From the NCBI GenBank assembly GCA_934643435.1, contig CAKUCJ010000013.1, positions 1-12,553 on the forward strand: a stretch of DNA of 12,553 nucleotides, written 5' to 3'. The position numbers were made by a program, and so were the translations under genes. The DNA is from an uncultured Collinsella sp. (lineage in GTDB: Bacteria > Actinomycetota > Coriobacteriia > Coriobacteriales > Coriobacteriaceae). Positions 3,001 through 12,456 of the stretch are shown here, one piece after another. Positions within the stretch are counted from its first letter, which is position 1. Each line of letters begins with the position of its first letter. A model generated the notes under the pieces. The model did not search any database. It was not told the origin of the DNA and saw nothing but the letters and a program-made list of their open reading frames with translations.

Positions 3001-3912
3001 TTAGAAGCGGTTGCCGCGGAAGCCGCCGCCGTTACGGCCGCCACGGTCGCCACCGCGGCCGCCACGGTCGTTGCCGCGGTTGCCGCCAAAGCCACCACGG
3101 TTGCCACCGCGGTCACCATAGCCACCACGGTTGCCGCCGAAGCCGCCACGACCGCCACGGTCGCCGCCACGGTCACCAAAGCCGCCACGGCCGCCACGAT
3201 CGCCACCGCGACCACCGCGGTCGCCACCACGGCCACCGCGATCGCCAAAGCCGCCACGACCGCCACGGTCGCCGCCACGGCCACCGCGATCGTCACGACC
3301 GCCGCGAGGACCGCGGTCCTCGTCCAGGCCCATGGCGACGAGCGGGGCGATAACCTTATCGAGGGCAGCCATCAGCTCGGTGGCCTCCTCGTAAGAAAGC
3401 TCGGGCAGGAGCTTCTCCTTCTTGTTGGCAAGCTCGGTCAGGCCCTCGGCAGCATCCTCAGCAGCGAAGACGACGATCTTGCGCATATCGCCCTCGGCGT
3501 CGTCGATGCGACCGACCAGATCGGCAGCCTCGGCCTCGGCCATCAGGCCATCGAGCTCACGAAGGCGCATGCCCAGCAGATCGGACATCTCCTTCTGCTC
3601 CATCTTGGGCTTGAGGTCAAGGAGCTTAATGGCGCGCTCGATGTTCGCCATGCGCTCGGCCTTGGCCTCCTCCTCCTTGGAAATAGCAAAGCGACGGCTA
3701 CGCAGCAGGCGGGCGGCCTTCTGCATCTTGTCCATCAGCTCTTCGTCATCGTAGTCAGCGGCGGCCTCGACAACCTCGGCCTCCTCCTCGGCGGAAACCT
3801 CGTCAGCAGCCTCAACCTCGGCAGCTTCGGTCTCCACGGTCTCGACTGCCTCAACCTCGGCAGCCATGGTCTCGTTCTCGGTCTCGTTCATGATCTCTTC
3901 GTTCTCAGACAT
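3001..3912 (-). CDS. MarR-like winged-helix protein with acidic N-terminus and RGG-rich C-terminal tail
   Basis: This 303-residue protein has three parts. Residues 1-60 are strongly acidic (Glu/Ala/Val) and probably disordered. Residues about 60-195 look like a MarR-type winged helix: a basic helix RLLRSRRFAISKEEEAK, then IERAIKLLDLKP, KMEQKEMSDLLGM, the candidate recognition helix RLRELDGLMAEAEAADLV, and a wing with DDAEGDMRKIVVFAAEDA that parallels the MarR wing. Residues about 200-303 are low complexity (Arg, Gly, Asp, Asn, Phe) with about 20 RGG motifs, some as FGDRGG and FGGNRGG units. RGG tails in other proteins bind RNA or DNA and promote condensation. The start is fixed by AAGGAG five bases ahead of ATG at 3912. 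It might be a nucleoid, transcription or RNA-associated factor; the exact role is unknown. Confidence 0.85.
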   Translation of the reverse strand: MSENEEIMNETENETMAAEVEAVETVETEAAEVEAADEVSAEEEAEVVEAAADYDDEELMDKMQKAARLLRSRRFAISKEEEAKAERMANIERAIKLLDLKPKMEQKEMSDLLGMRLRELDGLMAEAEAADLVGRIDDAEGDMRKIVVFAAEDAAEGLTELANKKEKLLPELSYEEATELMAALDKVIAPLVAMGLDEDRGPRGGRDDRGGRGGDRGGRGGFGDRGGRGGDRGGRGGDRGGRGGFGDRGGDRGGRGGFGGNRGGYGDRGGNRGGFGGNRGNDRGGRGGDRGGRNGGGFRGNRF

Positions 3913-4123: not shown

Positions 4124-4534
4124 ATGATCAAACCCATCATGAAGTCCGAGTTCTTTTTACGCCTGCCCTCCGAGAATGCCAGCCCCGAAGATGCCGCGAC
4201 CGGGCAGGATCTTCTGGACACGCTGCACGAGCATGAGCACGAGTGTGTGGGGCTTGCCGCCAACATGATCGGCGTACGCAAGCGCATCATCTGCGTAAAA
4301 GACGGCAGCAAGTCGTTGCTCATGTACAACCCGCAGATTCTTGAGCAGGTCAACGCCTACCAGACGAGCGAAGGTTGCCTCTCGCTCGTCGGCGAGCGCC
4401 CCTGCACACGTTATCGCCGCATTAAAGTGGAGTATCTGGACGAAAACTTCGTGCACCGCATCAAGAACTTCTCGGACTACACCGCCGAGATCATCCAACA
4501 CGAAATCGACCACTGCCAGGGCACCGTTATATAA
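4124..4534 (+). CDS. def: Short peptide deformylase
   Basis: The 136-residue product should remove the formyl group from nascent N-terminal fMet in the cytoplasm, using a metal held by one Cys and two His. Motif I reads VGLAANMIG (42-50), motif II EGCLS (83-87, metal ligand Cys85) and motif III HEIDH (126-130, ligands His126 and His130, catalytic Glu127). The protein ends six residues after motif III, so it lacks the C-terminal helix of E. coli-type enzymes (about 168 residues). The usual Gln of GLAAxQ is Met48, as I recall from a short Firmicutes/Actinobacteria subfamily. TAAGGAG precedes the ATG at a normal distance. The metal and proton-transfer residues are intact, but the Gln change leaves true deformylase activity uncertain. 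A paralogue lies at 11972-12394. Confidence 0.88.
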   Translation: MIKPIMKSEFFLRLPSENASPEDAATGQDLLDTLHEHEHECVGLAANMIGVRKRIICVKDGSKSLLMYNPQILEQVNAYQTSEGCLSLVGERPCTRYRRIKVEYLDENFVHRIKNFSDYTAEIIQHEIDHCQGTVI

Positions 4535-4638: not shown

Positions 4639-6159
4639 TTAGCTCTGACGGTAGTGATCAAAGAAGTCGGCAAGGTCTTCGAGGGACTCTTTGAGCACTT
4701 CCATGCGCGGCAGGTACACGATGCGGAAGTGGTCGGGCTCGGCCCAGTTAAAGCCGCCGCCGCGCGTGATCAGGATCTTCTTCTCGTGCAGCAGGTCAAG
4801 GGCAAACTGCTCGTCATCGGTGATGTTGAACTTCTTCACATCCATCTTGGGGAAGATGTAGAACGCCGCGCGCGGCTTGACCACCGAGATGCCGTCGATC
4901 TTGCTGAGCGCCTCGTACACAAAGTTGCGCTGCTCGTAGACACGGCCGCCGGGGCGGATGTAGTCGTTAACGGACTGATGACCGCCGAGCGCCGTCTGAA
5001 CGATCGACTGAGCCGGGACGTTAGAGCACAGGCGCATGTTCGAAAGCATGTTGATGCCCATAATAAAGTCGCTCATGCAGCGCTGGTTGCCCGAAAGCAC
5101 CATCCAGCCAATACGGTAGCCCGCGATCATGTGTGACTTGGAAAGGCCGCTAAAGGTGACGCAGGGCAGGTCGGGCGCGAGCGAAGCAATCGAGACGTGC
5201 TCGTAGCCGTCCATGCACAGACGGTCATAGATCTCGTCGGCAAAGATCATCAACTGGTGCCTGCGCGCGATCTCGACGATGCCTTCGAGCACCTCGCGCG
5301 GATAGACCGAGCCCGTGGGGTTGTTGGGGTTGATGATGACGAGGGCCTTGGTCGCGCTCGTGATCTTGGACTCCATATCCTCCAGGTCGGGATACCAATC
5401 GGCCTGTTCGTCGCACAGATAATGCACGGGATGACCGCCGGCAAGGGTTGCGCACGCCGTCCACAGCGGATAGTCGGGGCTGGGGATCAGGATCTCGTCG
5501 CCATTGTCGAGCAGCGCGTTCATCGAAAGCTGAATGAGCTCGGACACGCCGTTGCCCGTGTAGATGTGCTCCATCTGAACGTTGGGCAGACCCTTGATCT
5601 GCGAGTACTGCATGATCGCCTTGCGAGCGGAGAACAGGCCGCGCGAGTTGGAATAGCCCTCGCAGTCGGGCAGCTGCTGACGCATGTCCTTGATGACCTC
5701 ATCGGGCGTGCGGAAACCAAAAGGCGCCGGGTTACCAATATTGAGCTTGAGGATGCGCTCGCCCTCGTCCTCCATACGGGCGGCCTCGTCGACAACGGGG
5801 CCGCGCACGTCATACAGGACGTTATCGAGCTTGGTGGATTTAGAGAAAGTGCGCATGGTAGTGCTCCTTGCAATTTGAGCCGTGGGACTAGGTTCGGATT
5901 TGGAAACGTTATGGGACGAGGGCGCCTCGCCTTGGTCGGCGTCACTGGCGAGCAGCCAGGTAACATCGACCTCCAAAATACGGGCGAGCAGCTCTGCCAC
6001 ATCGCGCCGCGGGATCGTCTTGCCGCTCACATATTGGCTCATCTGACTCTTGCCGAGTTTTTTGCCGAGCATCTCCGATGCGCGAATCACGTCCGACTGG
6101 CGAACGTCGCGATCGGACATAGCCTGTCGCAGGCGATCGCTAAACGTCTCTTGGGCCAC
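4639..6159 (-). CDS. XRE-type HTH fused to AlaA-like alanine aminotransferase
   Basis: From the GTG at 6159 (AAGGAGG five bases ahead) the protein has 506 residues. Residues about 5-70 form an XRE/Cro-type helix-turn-helix with KSQMSQYVSGKTIPRRDVAE as the core. A polar linker (about 72-105) leads into a complete fold-type I aminotransferase that closely resembles E. coli AlaA: LKLNIGNPAPFGF, YTGNGVSELIQ, NPNNPTG (277-283), ADEIYD (Asp308, Tyr311), the PLP lysine in SGLSKSH (Lys341), Arg349, and the carboxylate-binding Arg479 in DHFRIVYLPR. The likely reaction is glutamate + pyruvate to alanine + 2-oxoglutarate. Unlike MocR proteins, the HTH is XRE rather than GntR and the enzyme part is intact. 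An internal SD and ATG at 5856 would give a 405-residue enzyme without the HTH. GTTCAATT boxes upstream suggest autoregulation. The in-frame ATG at 6198 is less likely because it overlaps an operator box and lacks an SD. Confidence 0.9.
   Translation of the reverse strand: MAQETFSDRLRQAMSDRDVRQSDVIRASEMLGKKLGKSQMSQYVSGKTIPRRDVAELLARILEVDVTWLLASDADQGEAPSSHNVSKSEPSPTAQIARSTTMRTFSKSTKLDNVLYDVRGPVVDEAARMEDEGERILKLNIGNPAPFGFRTPDEVIKDMRQQLPDCEGYSNSRGLFSARKAIMQYSQIKGLPNVQMEHIYTGNGVSELIQLSMNALLDNGDEILIPSPDYPLWTACATLAGGHPVHYLCDEQADWYPDLEDMESKITSATKALVIINPNNPTGSVYPREVLEGIVEIARRHQLMIFADEIYDRLCMDGYEHVSIASLAPDLPCVTFSGLSKSHMIAGYRIGWMVLSGNQRCMSDFIMGINMLSNMRLCSNVPAQSIVQTALGGHQSVNDYIRPGGRVYEQRNFVYEALSKIDGISVVKPRAAFYIFPKMDVKKFNITDDEQFALDLLHEKKILITRGGGFNWAEPDHFRIVYLPRMEVLKESLEDLADFFDHYRQS
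5854..5869 (-). promoter_or_regulatory. Internal Shine-Dalgarno and ATG at the HTH-aminotransferase junction
   Basis: On the minus strand AAGGAG (5869-5864) lies seven bases before an in-frame ATG (5856-5854). Starting there gives MRTFSKSTKLDNVLYDVRGP and so on, 405 residues, the length and start I expect for a stand-alone AlaA. It is either a live second start or a relic of the gene before fusion. Confidence 0.6.
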
Positions 6160-6164
6160 TAGAA

Positions 6165-6171
6165 CCTCCTT
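6165..6171 (-). promoter_or_regulatory. Ribosome binding site deciding the GTG start of the XRE-aminotransferase gene
   Basis: AAGGAGG on the minus strand is five bases before GTG at 6159. It is a near-perfect anti-SD match and excludes the upstream ATG at 6198. Confidence 0.8.
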
Positions 6172-6177
6172 GCTGGC

Positions 6178-6263
6178 AAAGTTCAATTTATAGAACACGA
6201 ATTGAACCTTAGTTCAATTTAGGCAGCAGTATAGCGCGGCACATAGTACGAAAGTTCAATTTC
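6178..6263. promoter_or_regulatory. Array of four GTTCAATT operator-like boxes
   Basis: AAAGTTCAATTTA (6178-6190), the dyad AATTGAAC-CTTA-GTTCAATT (6200-6219) and AAAGTTCAATTTC (6251-6263) place four copies of one octamer within 86 bases directly upstream of the XRE-aminotransferase gene. A minus-strand -10, TATACT, is at 6233-6228, between the boxes, and the distal box overlaps the -35 region. The obvious candidate ligand is the XRE domain encoded by the gene itself, giving autoregulation. Binding is inferred. Confidence 0.65.
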
Positions 6264-6320
6264 ACAAAGAAATGCGCCAAGTTCCAAGATTTGCTCCAGA
6301 GCAGATAACAGTGTGCACCA

Positions 6321-7178
6321 TTAGAGATATTCGAGAAATCGAGTCGCCGCAAGCGAAACGTCGGCCGTGCGGTGTATGGCATTGATTTGCCGATGAGGAT
6401 GCCCCTCCAGCGGCCGGATAGCGACATCAAACTGACAGCGGCGCAAGATGAGTGCCGGAAGAACACTCACGCCCAATCCGTCCTCAACCATAGCCATGAT
6501 CGCATAGTCATCCCAGGTCGACAGCTTAGAGCGCACCGTCAATCCCGCCCGACGGAACAGCGGCGTAATCTCATCGTCGCTACCCCGTTCCAGCAGAATA
6601 AACTGCTCGTTGGCCAAATCGGCAAGAGAAACGGCCTTTGCGGCGGCAAGAGGAGAGCTTGCCGGCACCACGGCCATCAGCTCGTCTTGCACCAACTGCC
6701 GCGACGCCATGCCGGCGCCGCGGGGCTCGCGCGGGATAAAGCCCAGGTCGCAGCGGCCTTCCGCCACCCATTGCTCAATCTCGGAGTAATCACCCATCAG
6801 CAGCTCGTAATCGACATCCGGGTGATCGGTGCGAAACCGCGCGATGACCGGCGGCAGCACATGGGTCGCCACGCTCGAAAACGTACCGATGCAGACCTTG
6901 CCGCGCATGAGCCCGCGCATCTCGTCCACGCGTCGCTGCAGGCGGCCAAACTCCTCGCATAACGCCTCGACCGCCGGCATGATCTGCCGCCCGTCGGCAG
7001 AAAGCACCACGCCCTCGCGGCTGCGGTCGAGCACCTTAAAACCCCAGTCGGCCTCAAGGTCGCCCACCATACGGCTCACGCCCGACTGCGAATAGCTCAG
7101 GCGCTCAGCGGCGCGCGTAAAGCTACCGGCACGTACCGTCTCGAGCAGCACTTGCATCTTTTGGATATTGGTCTCCAC
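6321..7178 (-). CDS. LysR-family transcriptional regulator
   Basis: The 285-residue protein is a standard LysR-type regulator. Residues about 3-62 form the winged helix with the typical SFTRAAERLSYSQSGVSRMV, followed by the linker helix LCEEFGRLQRRVDEMRGLM. From about residue 90 comes the periplasmic-binding-like effector domain (VCIGTFSSVATHVLPPVI, CDLGFIPRE, GLGVSVLP). I prefer the GTG at 7178 because GGGGA lies six bases ahead and the HTH then begins at the usual distance from the start; an ATG at 7199 would add seven residues but has no SD. It is divergent from an EamA permease, which it probably controls. The effector is unknown. It lies 161 bases upstream of the XRE-aminotransferase gene on the same strand, with no clear terminator between. 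Confidence 0.92.
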   Translation of the reverse strand: METNIQKMQVLLETVRAGSFTRAAERLSYSQSGVSRMVGDLEADWGFKVLDRSREGVVLSADGRQIMPAVEALCEEFGRLQRRVDEMRGLMRGKVCIGTFSSVATHVLPPVIARFRTDHPDVDYELLMGDYSEIEQWVAEGRCDLGFIPREPRGAGMASRQLVQDELMAVVPASSPLAAAKAVSLADLANEQFILLERGSDDEITPLFRRAGLTVRSKLSTWDDYAIMAMVEDGLGVSVLPALILRRCQFDVAIRPLEGHPHRQINAIHRTADVSLAATRFLEYL

Positions 7179-10744: not shown

Positions 10745-11710
10745 CTACGAACGACGCGGTTCGGGAACCACGAGCCTATCGGGGCTCGCGCCTTCGGCAT
10801 CCATTAGGCTCACGTAGCGAATCGACGGGTCCTCGTACGTTGAGTAATAGTAATTGCCCGTTCGCGCGCTAAAGCAGCCGGTGTAAATGGTCTTCTCGAA
10901 CTTGCCGTCACCCATCTTGGACGCGCCCTCGATCATCGCCACGCCCTCGAGCGAGCGGAACATGCGGAGGACGTTTTCGGCCTCGCTCTCCTTTTGCGGG
11001 TAATTGGCGTTAAGATATGCCGCCTTTACAAAGCGACTCGGTGAATAGCAGTCGCCCGGAATGCCACGCATGCCGGCGCCGGCGCCATAGGGCTTGAGCT
11101 CGGCGGCGCGCCATGTCGCCGTCTGCGGAAAATCACTTGTGGCGGTGATATAGGTGCGCAGATTTTCCATGTGCCACGGGAAGGTCGGCTGGTTGGCAAG
11201 GGTATCGACCGGATCGTCATACACATGCAGGCCGTCAGCCAACATCTCGACCACAATGCTGCGCTGGTCGTCGCCGATAATCCAGTGGAGCAGCGATACG
11301 CCCAGCCCCTCGCCTGCGGACTTAGCGACGATCGCTGTGTTGCGCAGCGCGGCCTCGACCTCATCGACCGTCGAGAACGTCGATGCCACCCATAGGGGAA
11401 ACTCGTAGGCCGCGATATTGGTCTTGCCCTCGACAGGGGCCTCGGCATACTCGGCGTAGCCGGGAAAGTTAAGGCCCGCCACGGCCAGTCCCGCATCGTT
11501 ACCGCAGTCGAAATACATGGGGTAGTTCTTGTAGTCGATGCACATGCCAATCACCGCATGCGCAGCCGTCGCATCGTCGATAAACGAATACGGAATATGG
11601 AACCCGCGCGGCATAACGCGGACCTGCTGGCCATAGCCAAAGCTCCAGTCGAGGTTGCGACCCAAATACATATGGCCGGAATTATCGGTAAATCGAATGC
11701 TCGTGCACAT
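10745..11710 (-). CDS. bsh: Choloylglycine (bile salt) hydrolase
   Basis: The 321-residue Ntn hydrolase cleaves the amide bond of glycine- or taurine-conjugated bile salts in the cytoplasm. After Met removal Cys2 is the nucleophile, and the other expected active-site residues are all present: Arg18 and Asp21 in LGRNLDWS, Asn81 in GLNFPG, Asn173 in ANQPTF, and Arg226 in SPSRFVKA. Asn81 rather than the Tyr of penicillin V acylases favours bile salt hydrolase. Length is normal for the family. There is no signal peptide, as expected. AGGAGG precedes the ATG by four bases. It is convergent with kup and shows no partner gene. The presence of this enzyme points to a gut habitat. Substrate preference cannot be read from the sequence. 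Confidence 0.95.
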   Translation of the reverse strand: MCTSIRFTDNSGHMYLGRNLDWSFGYGQQVRVMPRGFHIPYSFIDDATAAHAVIGMCIDYKNYPMYFDCGNDAGLAVAGLNFPGYAEYAEAPVEGKTNIAAYEFPLWVASTFSTVDEVEAALRNTAIVAKSAGEGLGVSLLHWIIGDDQRSIVVEMLADGLHVYDDPVDTLANQPTFPWHMENLRTYITATSDFPQTATWRAAELKPYGAGAGMRGIPGDCYSPSRFVKAAYLNANYPQKESEAENVLRMFRSLEGVAMIEGASKMGDGKFEKTIYTGCFSARTGNYYYSTYEDPSIRYVSLMDAEGASPDRLVVPEPRRS

Positions 11711-11872: not shown

Positions 11873-11978
11873 TAAAGTGTCGAGGTGCCGCAGATTGACG
11901 TGAAAGAGGAGCGCAGCGTACTAATAGTACGTAAGCGACGATTGAACGCCAAGGTGCGGTGCATCGGCGCTTTAAACC
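11869..11978. repeat. Imperfect palindrome of about 110 bases overlapping the deformylase-like stop codon
   Basis: The outer arms are GGTTTAAAG (11869-11877) and CTTTAAACC (11970-11978). Inner matching blocks include GTGCCGCA against TGCGGTGC, TTGACGT against ACGCCAA, and the centre CGTACTA-A-TAGTACG (11917-11931). The arms differ by about one base in length and at scattered positions, some G-U compatible. The right arm contains the stop of the minus-strand gene at 11972. It may be an extended 3' RNA hairpin or a palindromic mobile element. Confidence 0.65.
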
Positions 11979-12394
11979 AACTTTCCAAGACAGTGGTCGA
12001 TCATGTGTTGGATGATCTCGGCCGTCCAGTCGGTGAACTCGCGGTTCTTCGTGACGAGCTTGTCGCCTGCAAGTTCCTGGTAGCTAATCTTCGCCTTGGC
12101 ATAGCGCGTGACCTTGGACTCTTCCTCGCGGGACAGGCAATCTTCCGTGGTCTTGAAAGCGCCGAGCGCGCGGATCATCTTCGCGTTGAACATGACGTGC
12201 GGCTTGTCGTCGGCATCGAGGTAGACGAAGGCGGCCTTTGTCACGCCGAGCTGGTTGGCGTGTAGGCAGGCGACGTTCTCGAGCGACTCGAGCGTGTCGG
12301 TGAGGTCGGCGGCGAGCGCTGCGGCTTCTTCGGTGGTGACGGCATCGCAAGGCTGCGACAAGACGGCTTCGTCTTTCACCAGGTCTTTGATCAT
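11972..12394 (-). CDS. Peptide deformylase-like protein with altered catalytic motif
   Basis: This 140-residue protein is a paralogue of the deformylase at 4124-4534, with the same early end after motif III and a shared TAEIIQH-IDHC block. Motif I is CLHANQLG (43-50; the Gln is kept but GLAA is changed to CLHA). Motif II is EDCLS (84-88) with ligand Cys86 kept and Gly changed to Asp. Motif III is HMIDH (130-134): both His ligands remain, but the catalytic Glu is Met131. Metal binding may persist, but hydrolysis by the usual mechanism is unlikely. The start is set by GGAGGA seven bases before ATG at 12394; an upstream in-frame ATG at 12436 lacks support. A -10, TACAAT, lies at 12462-12457. Confidence 0.85.
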   Translation of the reverse strand: MIKDLVKDEAVLSQPCDAVTTEEAAALAADLTDTLESLENVACLHANQLGVTKAAFVYLDADDKPHVMFNAKMIRALGAFKTTEDCLSREEESKVTRYAKAKISYQELAGDKLVTKNREFTDWTAEIIQHMIDHCLGKLV

Positions 12395-12401
12395 GAGGGT
12401 A

Positions 12402-12407
12402 TCCTCC
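12402..12407 (-). promoter_or_regulatory. Ribosome binding site deciding the start of the deformylase-like gene
   Basis: GGAGGA on the minus strand precedes ATG (12394) by seven bases and rules in favour of the shorter 140-residue product. Confidence 0.75.
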
Positions 12408-12456
12408 CATAGGTTGCGAACAAAGCACGCCCGCAAGTTGGGCGCTCATATTTGAA

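Follow-up and report, generated by a model that had tools for sequence, protein, structure and literature searches.

Internal in-frame starts give rise to pairs of N-terminal proteoforms; CheA-L/S, CcmM-L/S, and IF2 alpha/beta are such pairs in the excerpted text of PMC11005335. Proteins of the MocR/GabR type join an N-terminal DNA-binding domain to a fold-type I aminotransferase domain, and in EnuR the latter mediates dimerisation (excerpts of PMC8739950, PMC6677901, and PMC4944035). The DNA-binding domain of MocR proteins is a winged helix-turn-helix (HTH) of the GntR type, and their aminotransferase domain is described, in the same partial text, as being without enzymatic activity (PMC8739950). 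AlaA of E. coli is a dimer whose interface includes the first ten residues and in which Met1 is ordered; a plug that follows this N-terminal arm seems to reach full order only when substrate or an analogue is bound, according to the available sections of the structure paper (PMC4094517).

The window analysed here, the whole 12,553-nt stretch of a contig from an uncultured Collinsella sp., carries on its minus strand an open reading frame for a fusion of a predicted HTH domain, a linker, and AlaA (Table 1). At the junction, the original prediction had placed an AAGGAG seven bases ahead of an in-frame ATG, and a direct reading of the strand confirms this, with CACTACC as the spacer. Like the proteoform pairs, the gene thus has another start in frame, preceded by a ribosome-binding sequence of its own. 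The frame that opens there was said to begin and end where a free-standing AlaA should, and it does so at both ends: its 405 codons align over residues 3–404 of 405 with E. coli AlaA (4cvq, E 5e-165), the match from which we take the name AlaA. For the fusion itself, the most likely start is the GTG behind AAGGAGG given in Table 1 rather than the GTG at 6198 of the ORF list, which sits amid upstream repeats. We propose, with a probability of about 0.85, that the conserved internal Shine-Dalgarno (SD)-ATG would let one HTH-AlaA mRNA also give enzyme-only AlaA, and that selection has kept this start.

Table 1. Features of the HTH-AlaA locus, with positions in the window
Feature	Position	Strand	Basis or remark
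Long product, HTH-linker-AlaA fusion, 506 aa	4639..6159	-	Likely start GTG 6159-6157
SD of the long form, AAGGAGG	6165..6171	-	Duplex energy -12.4 (upstream stretch)
Predicted XRE-type helix-turn-helix domain, residues 6-70 of 506	5950..6144	-	Pfam matches in homologues and structure model
Linker, residues 71-101	5857..5949	-	pLDDT <50 over 74-99; length and sequence vary among relatives
Internal Shine-Dalgarno, AAGGAG	5864..5869	-	Duplex energy -7.5; conserved
Internal start codon ATG (M-R-T-F-S-K)	5854..5856	-	In frame with the fusion ORF
Predicted short product, stand-alone AlaA, 405 aa	4639..5856	-	ORF, 4cvq alignment, and active-site residues
AAAGTTCAATTT-type site cluster and AATTGAAC-N4-GTTCAATT inverted repeat at 6200-6219, predicted HTH operators	6178..6262	.	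Motif association

To place the junction in a family context, we used 241 records, made up of the window and 240 loci from relatives of genome G001. One partial locus with no anchor (L096) was left out, and merging identical ORFs gave 185 distinct ones: 154 fused, with the HTH in frame, 30 stand-alone, and one unclassified (L083) that has a run of N across the HTH. Counts are based on the 132 fused rows, from Coriobacteriia and Clostridia-labelled genomes, that are distinct over 39 nt at the junction; the window stands among them as L001, which has the identical 39 bases. These rows share descent, and genus counts are therefore given alongside. Eleven further family genomes with strong matches were added after the first counts, and the per-genome tally covers 139 loci (130 fused, eight stand-alone, and one with N). 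An SD was scored as present at a duplex energy of -5 or better.

An ATG or GTG is found at the aligned Met or 1–4 codons upstream in 128/132 distinct junctions (110 aligned ATG, four aligned GTG, and 14 displaced ATG). The SD reaches the cut-off in 122/132, being weaker than -5 in the other ten genes, and start and SD occur together in 121/132. This is more than chance would give, because, among 1926 further in-frame ATGs within these ORFs (127 rows), only 22% have an SD match. ATGs in the linker number 22 in 3858 codons, and 5/22 have an SD at the cut-off. The 11 genomes added later are all fused and contribute six new junctions, with start and SD in 11/11. Among the 130 fused Coriobacteriia loci, 119 have start and SD, eight have a start with a weak SD (one of these has only a downstream GTG), and three have no start; outright loss of the start amounts to 3/141 Coriobacteriia fusion loci. 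By genus, start and SD are present in at least one member of 33/37 fusion genera and in all members read of 28. They are also present in 14/14 Clostridia-labelled fusions, which come from 80 of 410 encoding stretches; several of the 14 are metagenome bins that may be mislabelled. The starts that we infer for the stand-alone relatives, in some of which the frame stays open farther upstream, are ATG at the homologous position in 30/30, with an SD of -5 or better in 29/30.

The original prediction had named conservation of the SD and ATG against the flanking linker as a check, and the site does stand out: 121/132 rows keep both elements, while the linker just before them retains an identity of about 10%. 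In random pairs, identity is 10% over linker residues -25 to -6 and 70% over AlaA residues 6–25. Loss of the SD or ATG in close relatives that keep the fusion had been named as evidence against a working start; within genus g1, 40/41 fused loci have start and SD, and the 41st has the ATG with a weak SD. The 24 distinct C. aerofaciens-type ORFs show zero variation at -14 to -7 and in the ATG, and 25/61 positions vary across -75 to -15; this close comparison proves little by itself because -24 to -16 are invariant too. That SD and start stay across dozens of genera while the linker changed argues that one gene likely makes two proteins. The start is lost in L065/L198 (CGG), L207 (ATA), and L227 (CTG), and the sole start of L237 is a GTG two codons downstream without an SD, suggesting that the short form is dispensable somewhere.

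The SD behaves as an element conserved as nucleotides and not as peptide. A protein constraint on the last residues of the linker, R-S-x-x-M, might account for the conserved bases, and this peptide is common in the Collinsella family. We consider such a constraint barely credible because the SD core is spread over all three frames (71, 30, and 27 of the 128 rows with a GG core) while the encoded peptides differ (e.g. RSTT, SGGT, and REVHP). Moreover, 21/132 rows have R, V, I, T, Q, L, or S in place of the aligned Met; of these, 13 have an ATG 1–4 codons upstream, four have GTG, and four have lost the start. Arg at codon -4 is encoded by the rare AGG in 64/65 cases, whereas at 21 conserved Arg columns of AlaA its share is 0–4% per column. 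When synonymous codons were resampled by each gene's own usage, the mean duplex energy was -3.85, compared with -7.77 observed (sd of the simulated means 0.16; lowest of 300, -4.39). Compared with their own resampled means, 107/132 genes are better, 72 at p≤0.05, and 25 are not better; the same resampling of ATGs inside AlaA (n=1830) gave no shift (-2.65 versus -2.80). This test treats the rows as independent though they are related by descent; AGG is nonetheless not kept at conserved Arg sites of AlaA.

These data also bear on whether the site is an active start or a fossil, which the original prediction had left open. As a fossil, the SD-ATG would be a start inherited from ancestral AlaA, trapped inside the gene by fusion of the HTH and now without use; stand-alone AlaA has the identical SD-ATG placement, the fusion clade is nested among stand-alone genes, and a few lineages lost the start. 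Age and codon choice make this very unlikely, as the site was kept in 33/37 genera while the linker fell to 10% amino acid identity and AGG is all but absent from the enzyme's conserved Arg sites; the same two observations support an active start. Relocated starts are likewise hard to square with inertia: of the 14 displaced starts, 13 have an SD at the cut-off, and Met has been replaced at the aligned position in 13 (L183 keeps it). A purine stretch could instead slow elongating ribosomes and aid folding, the ATG being incidental, and the site does lie exactly at the domain boundary, between the HTH with its disordered linker and the enzyme. Such slowing seems an improbable explanation, since the start codon is kept with the SD at a fixed spacing (GG at a median of -11, IQR -11 to -11, in 117 aligned rows, three of them without a start codon; median -11 in displaced rows) and structure around the start is low. 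Local folding is -8.7 at the internal start, -8.2 at stand-alone starts, -16.2 at random AlaA codons, and -12.4 at the long start; the weak folding at the internal start comes in part from a lower G+C content (52% versus 60%), and compared with its own shuffles the stretch is slightly less folded (mean z 0.69). Finally, an internal transcript of its own, and not the long mRNA, might be the template for the short form; the same ribosome-binding site would be used, so conservation is compatible with it, and promoter-like sites occur in 8/132 HTH-plus-linker stretches versus 2/132 equal lengths of AlaA. We judge this source unlikely too, because the 8/132 are close to the 7/132 in shuffled HTH-plus-linker stretches, compared with 28/132 for the 160 nt that precede the long start, and a consensus scan, itself weak evidence, found no sigma-70-like site at 5700-6400 of the window.

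The N-terminus of the fusion is predicted to be an XRE-like DNA-binding domain, from matches in homologues and a structure model. At E≤0.001, Pfam HTH_3 is matched by 35/42 homologues and HTH_31 by 34/42, with a best E of 1.1e-09, and the HTH models matched among the 42 members are HTH_3, HTH_31, HTH_19, and HTH_26. The window protein itself matches Pfam Aminotran_1_2; its HTH matches stay below the Pfam curated cut-offs (HTH_31, 23.8 versus 27; HTH_3, 21.2 versus 23). An AlphaFold model of the HTH has five helices with pLDDT block means of 82–97. The model of the whole fusion (mean pLDDT 77, pTM 0.57) has a good HTH and bad packing of AlaA, and a Foldseek comparison with 4cvq gave a query TM of 0.42 and an rmsd of 19; conclusions on AlaA are therefore drawn from sequence.

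Candidate operators lie ahead of the fusion, where three AAAGTTCAATTT-like direct repeats are accompanied by the AATTGAAC/GTTCAATT inverted repeat. ATTGAAC occurs within 160 nt before the assigned long start in 129/132 fusions, compared with a shuffled expectation of about 3/132 and with 2/30 stand-alone genes; the 160-nt stretches are approximate because long starts were assigned by SD strength. Upstream sites of this type are also found in 13/14 Clostridia-labelled fusions. The palindrome AATTGAAC-N4-GTTCAAT is present at the fusion locus in 3/3 Collinsella genomes, two of which have one looser match elsewhere, and has no occurrence in G057, a family member without a strong fusion match. The 12-mer AAATTGAACTTW is likewise at the fusion locus in 3/3 Collinsella genomes, with one other site in G001. 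Repeated and palindromic sites at the gene's own promoter, as looked for in an autoregulator, are thus found. The distribution of these motifs indicates that HTH-AlaA would be a largely self-directed regulator, with operator binding and repression predicted from motif association.

The enzyme part is probably active because nine active-site residues, taken from the available sections of the E. coli AlaA structure paper (PMC4094517), are invariant: Tyr15, Arg18, Gly41, Tyr68, Tyr129, Asn179, Tyr210, Lys240, and Arg378 are identical in 132/132 rows. The NCBIfam equivalog cut-off for alanine aminotransferase is missed (NF006230, 340.6 versus 534, the best among the models listed), none of the best 25 of 66 models reaches its NCBIfam cut-off, and the NCBIfam and Pfam matches name no family for the whole fusion.

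Elsewhere in the window, the PLP synthase genes pdxS and pdxT lie at 1133-2673, about 2 kb from the PLP enzyme AlaA. Two ORFs of the peptide deformylase family, at 4124-4534 (plus strand) and 11972-12436 (minus strand), have PRK09218 as their best NCBIfam model, and only the first of them reaches the cut-off. Positions 10745-11710 (minus strand) encode a choloylglycine (bile salt) hydrolase, with a score exceeding the NCBIfam cut-off. The minus-strand ORF at 3001-3912 encodes a protein of 303 aa whose long tail is RGG-rich and for which neither Pfam nor NCBIfam gave a match at the thresholds applied.

Trees built on the enzyme part place the fusions in one clade nested among stand-alone AlaA genes (FastTree, 162 rows, support 0.87; quick IQ-TREE run, 83 of the 162 rows, SH-aLRT 95). 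We infer the root of the tree and the direction of change, and we favour a single fusion event on the basis of shared HTH residues and shared TTGAAC sites. The IQ-TREE clade holds 53 fused and six stand-alone rows, and its deep order is without resolution. The six stand-alone genes (L087, L088, L208, L215, L232, and L234) are HTH-free, and all of them keep what was the internal ATG, each with an SD that reaches the -5 cut-off. One TTGAAC stands in the 400 nt upstream of three of them and none upstream of the other three, and upstream of stand-alone genes the search for HTH remnants gave weak matches at most (best E 0.03), none convincing. Our preferred reading of the six is that the HTH was lost about five times; L087 and L088 have starred placements, the other four have weaker ones, and starred branches force only 3/6 label changes.

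Together, these observations suggest a model in which the HTH is an added sensor-regulator arm. Ribosomes would initiate a second time at the junction SD-ATG of the same mRNA and yield AlaA alone; the ancestral ribosome-binding site would have been retained to leave much of the enzyme free of the HTH. The long form would bind the TTGAAC sites and regulate its own promoter. Given that E. coli AlaA dimerises through an interface that includes its first ten residues, long and short subunits may pair. As the HTH is tied to this N-terminal arm, which is followed by the plug that apparently orders fully only with substrate, we further propose mixed dimers and substrate sensing. A tentative extension, which we hold possible though doubtful, is a self-tuning switch: the two ribosome-binding sites would set the ratio of HTH-bearing to plain subunits, mixed dimers with one HTH would bind the palindrome poorly, making the short form an anti-repressor, and the substrate-ordered arm would report alanine/pyruvate supply to the promoter.

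Gene calling gives one long protein at this locus; by comparison we predict two, and we do so for the Coriobacteriales genera read as well as for some genomes labelled Clostridia. The locus suggests how a fusion can add regulation through a kept ancestral start, sparing every enzyme molecule a DNA-binding domain. Lineages in which the start is kept, moved, weakened, or lost, together with the HTH-free ones, form a natural series for the use of a short proteoform, and L065/L198, L207, L227, and L237 are four lineages that serve as natural experiments on it. Transformation tools for Coriobacteriia are available (PMC9734109).

Among the literature matches listed, judged by title and start of abstract, no paper deals with an HTH-AlaA fusion, and nothing relevant on Collinsella ribosome profiling is among them. 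The architecture may already be catalogued, presumably as CDD PRK13355, which we take to be a bifunctional HTH-domain/aminotransferase entry. Two proteoforms from one gene are of a known kind; among the literature matches listed, none describes the present case, in which a fusion of regulator and enzyme would also yield the enzyme alone, with conservation across an order. Like the CheA, CcmM, and IF2 pairs, HTH-AlaA has one gene and two in-frame starts, and its predicted short form lacks the N-terminal module. Unlike in those pairs, the short form here would be an entire metabolic enzyme, and what it lacks is a predicted DNA-binding domain; the HTH-AlaA pair is predicted from comparison. HTH-AlaA resembles MocR/GabR in that it, too, combines a DNA-binding domain with an aminotransferase. 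It differs from them, as far as the excerpted sources describe these proteins, in having an XRE-like HTH and nine invariant AlaA active-site residues; no GntR model is among the eight Pfam families matched by the 42 members. E. coli AlaA (4cvq) is a full-length homologue of the short product and is itself without an HTH; compared with it, and going by the available sections of its structure paper, the fusion hangs the HTH on a working arm, the one that contributes to the dimer interface.
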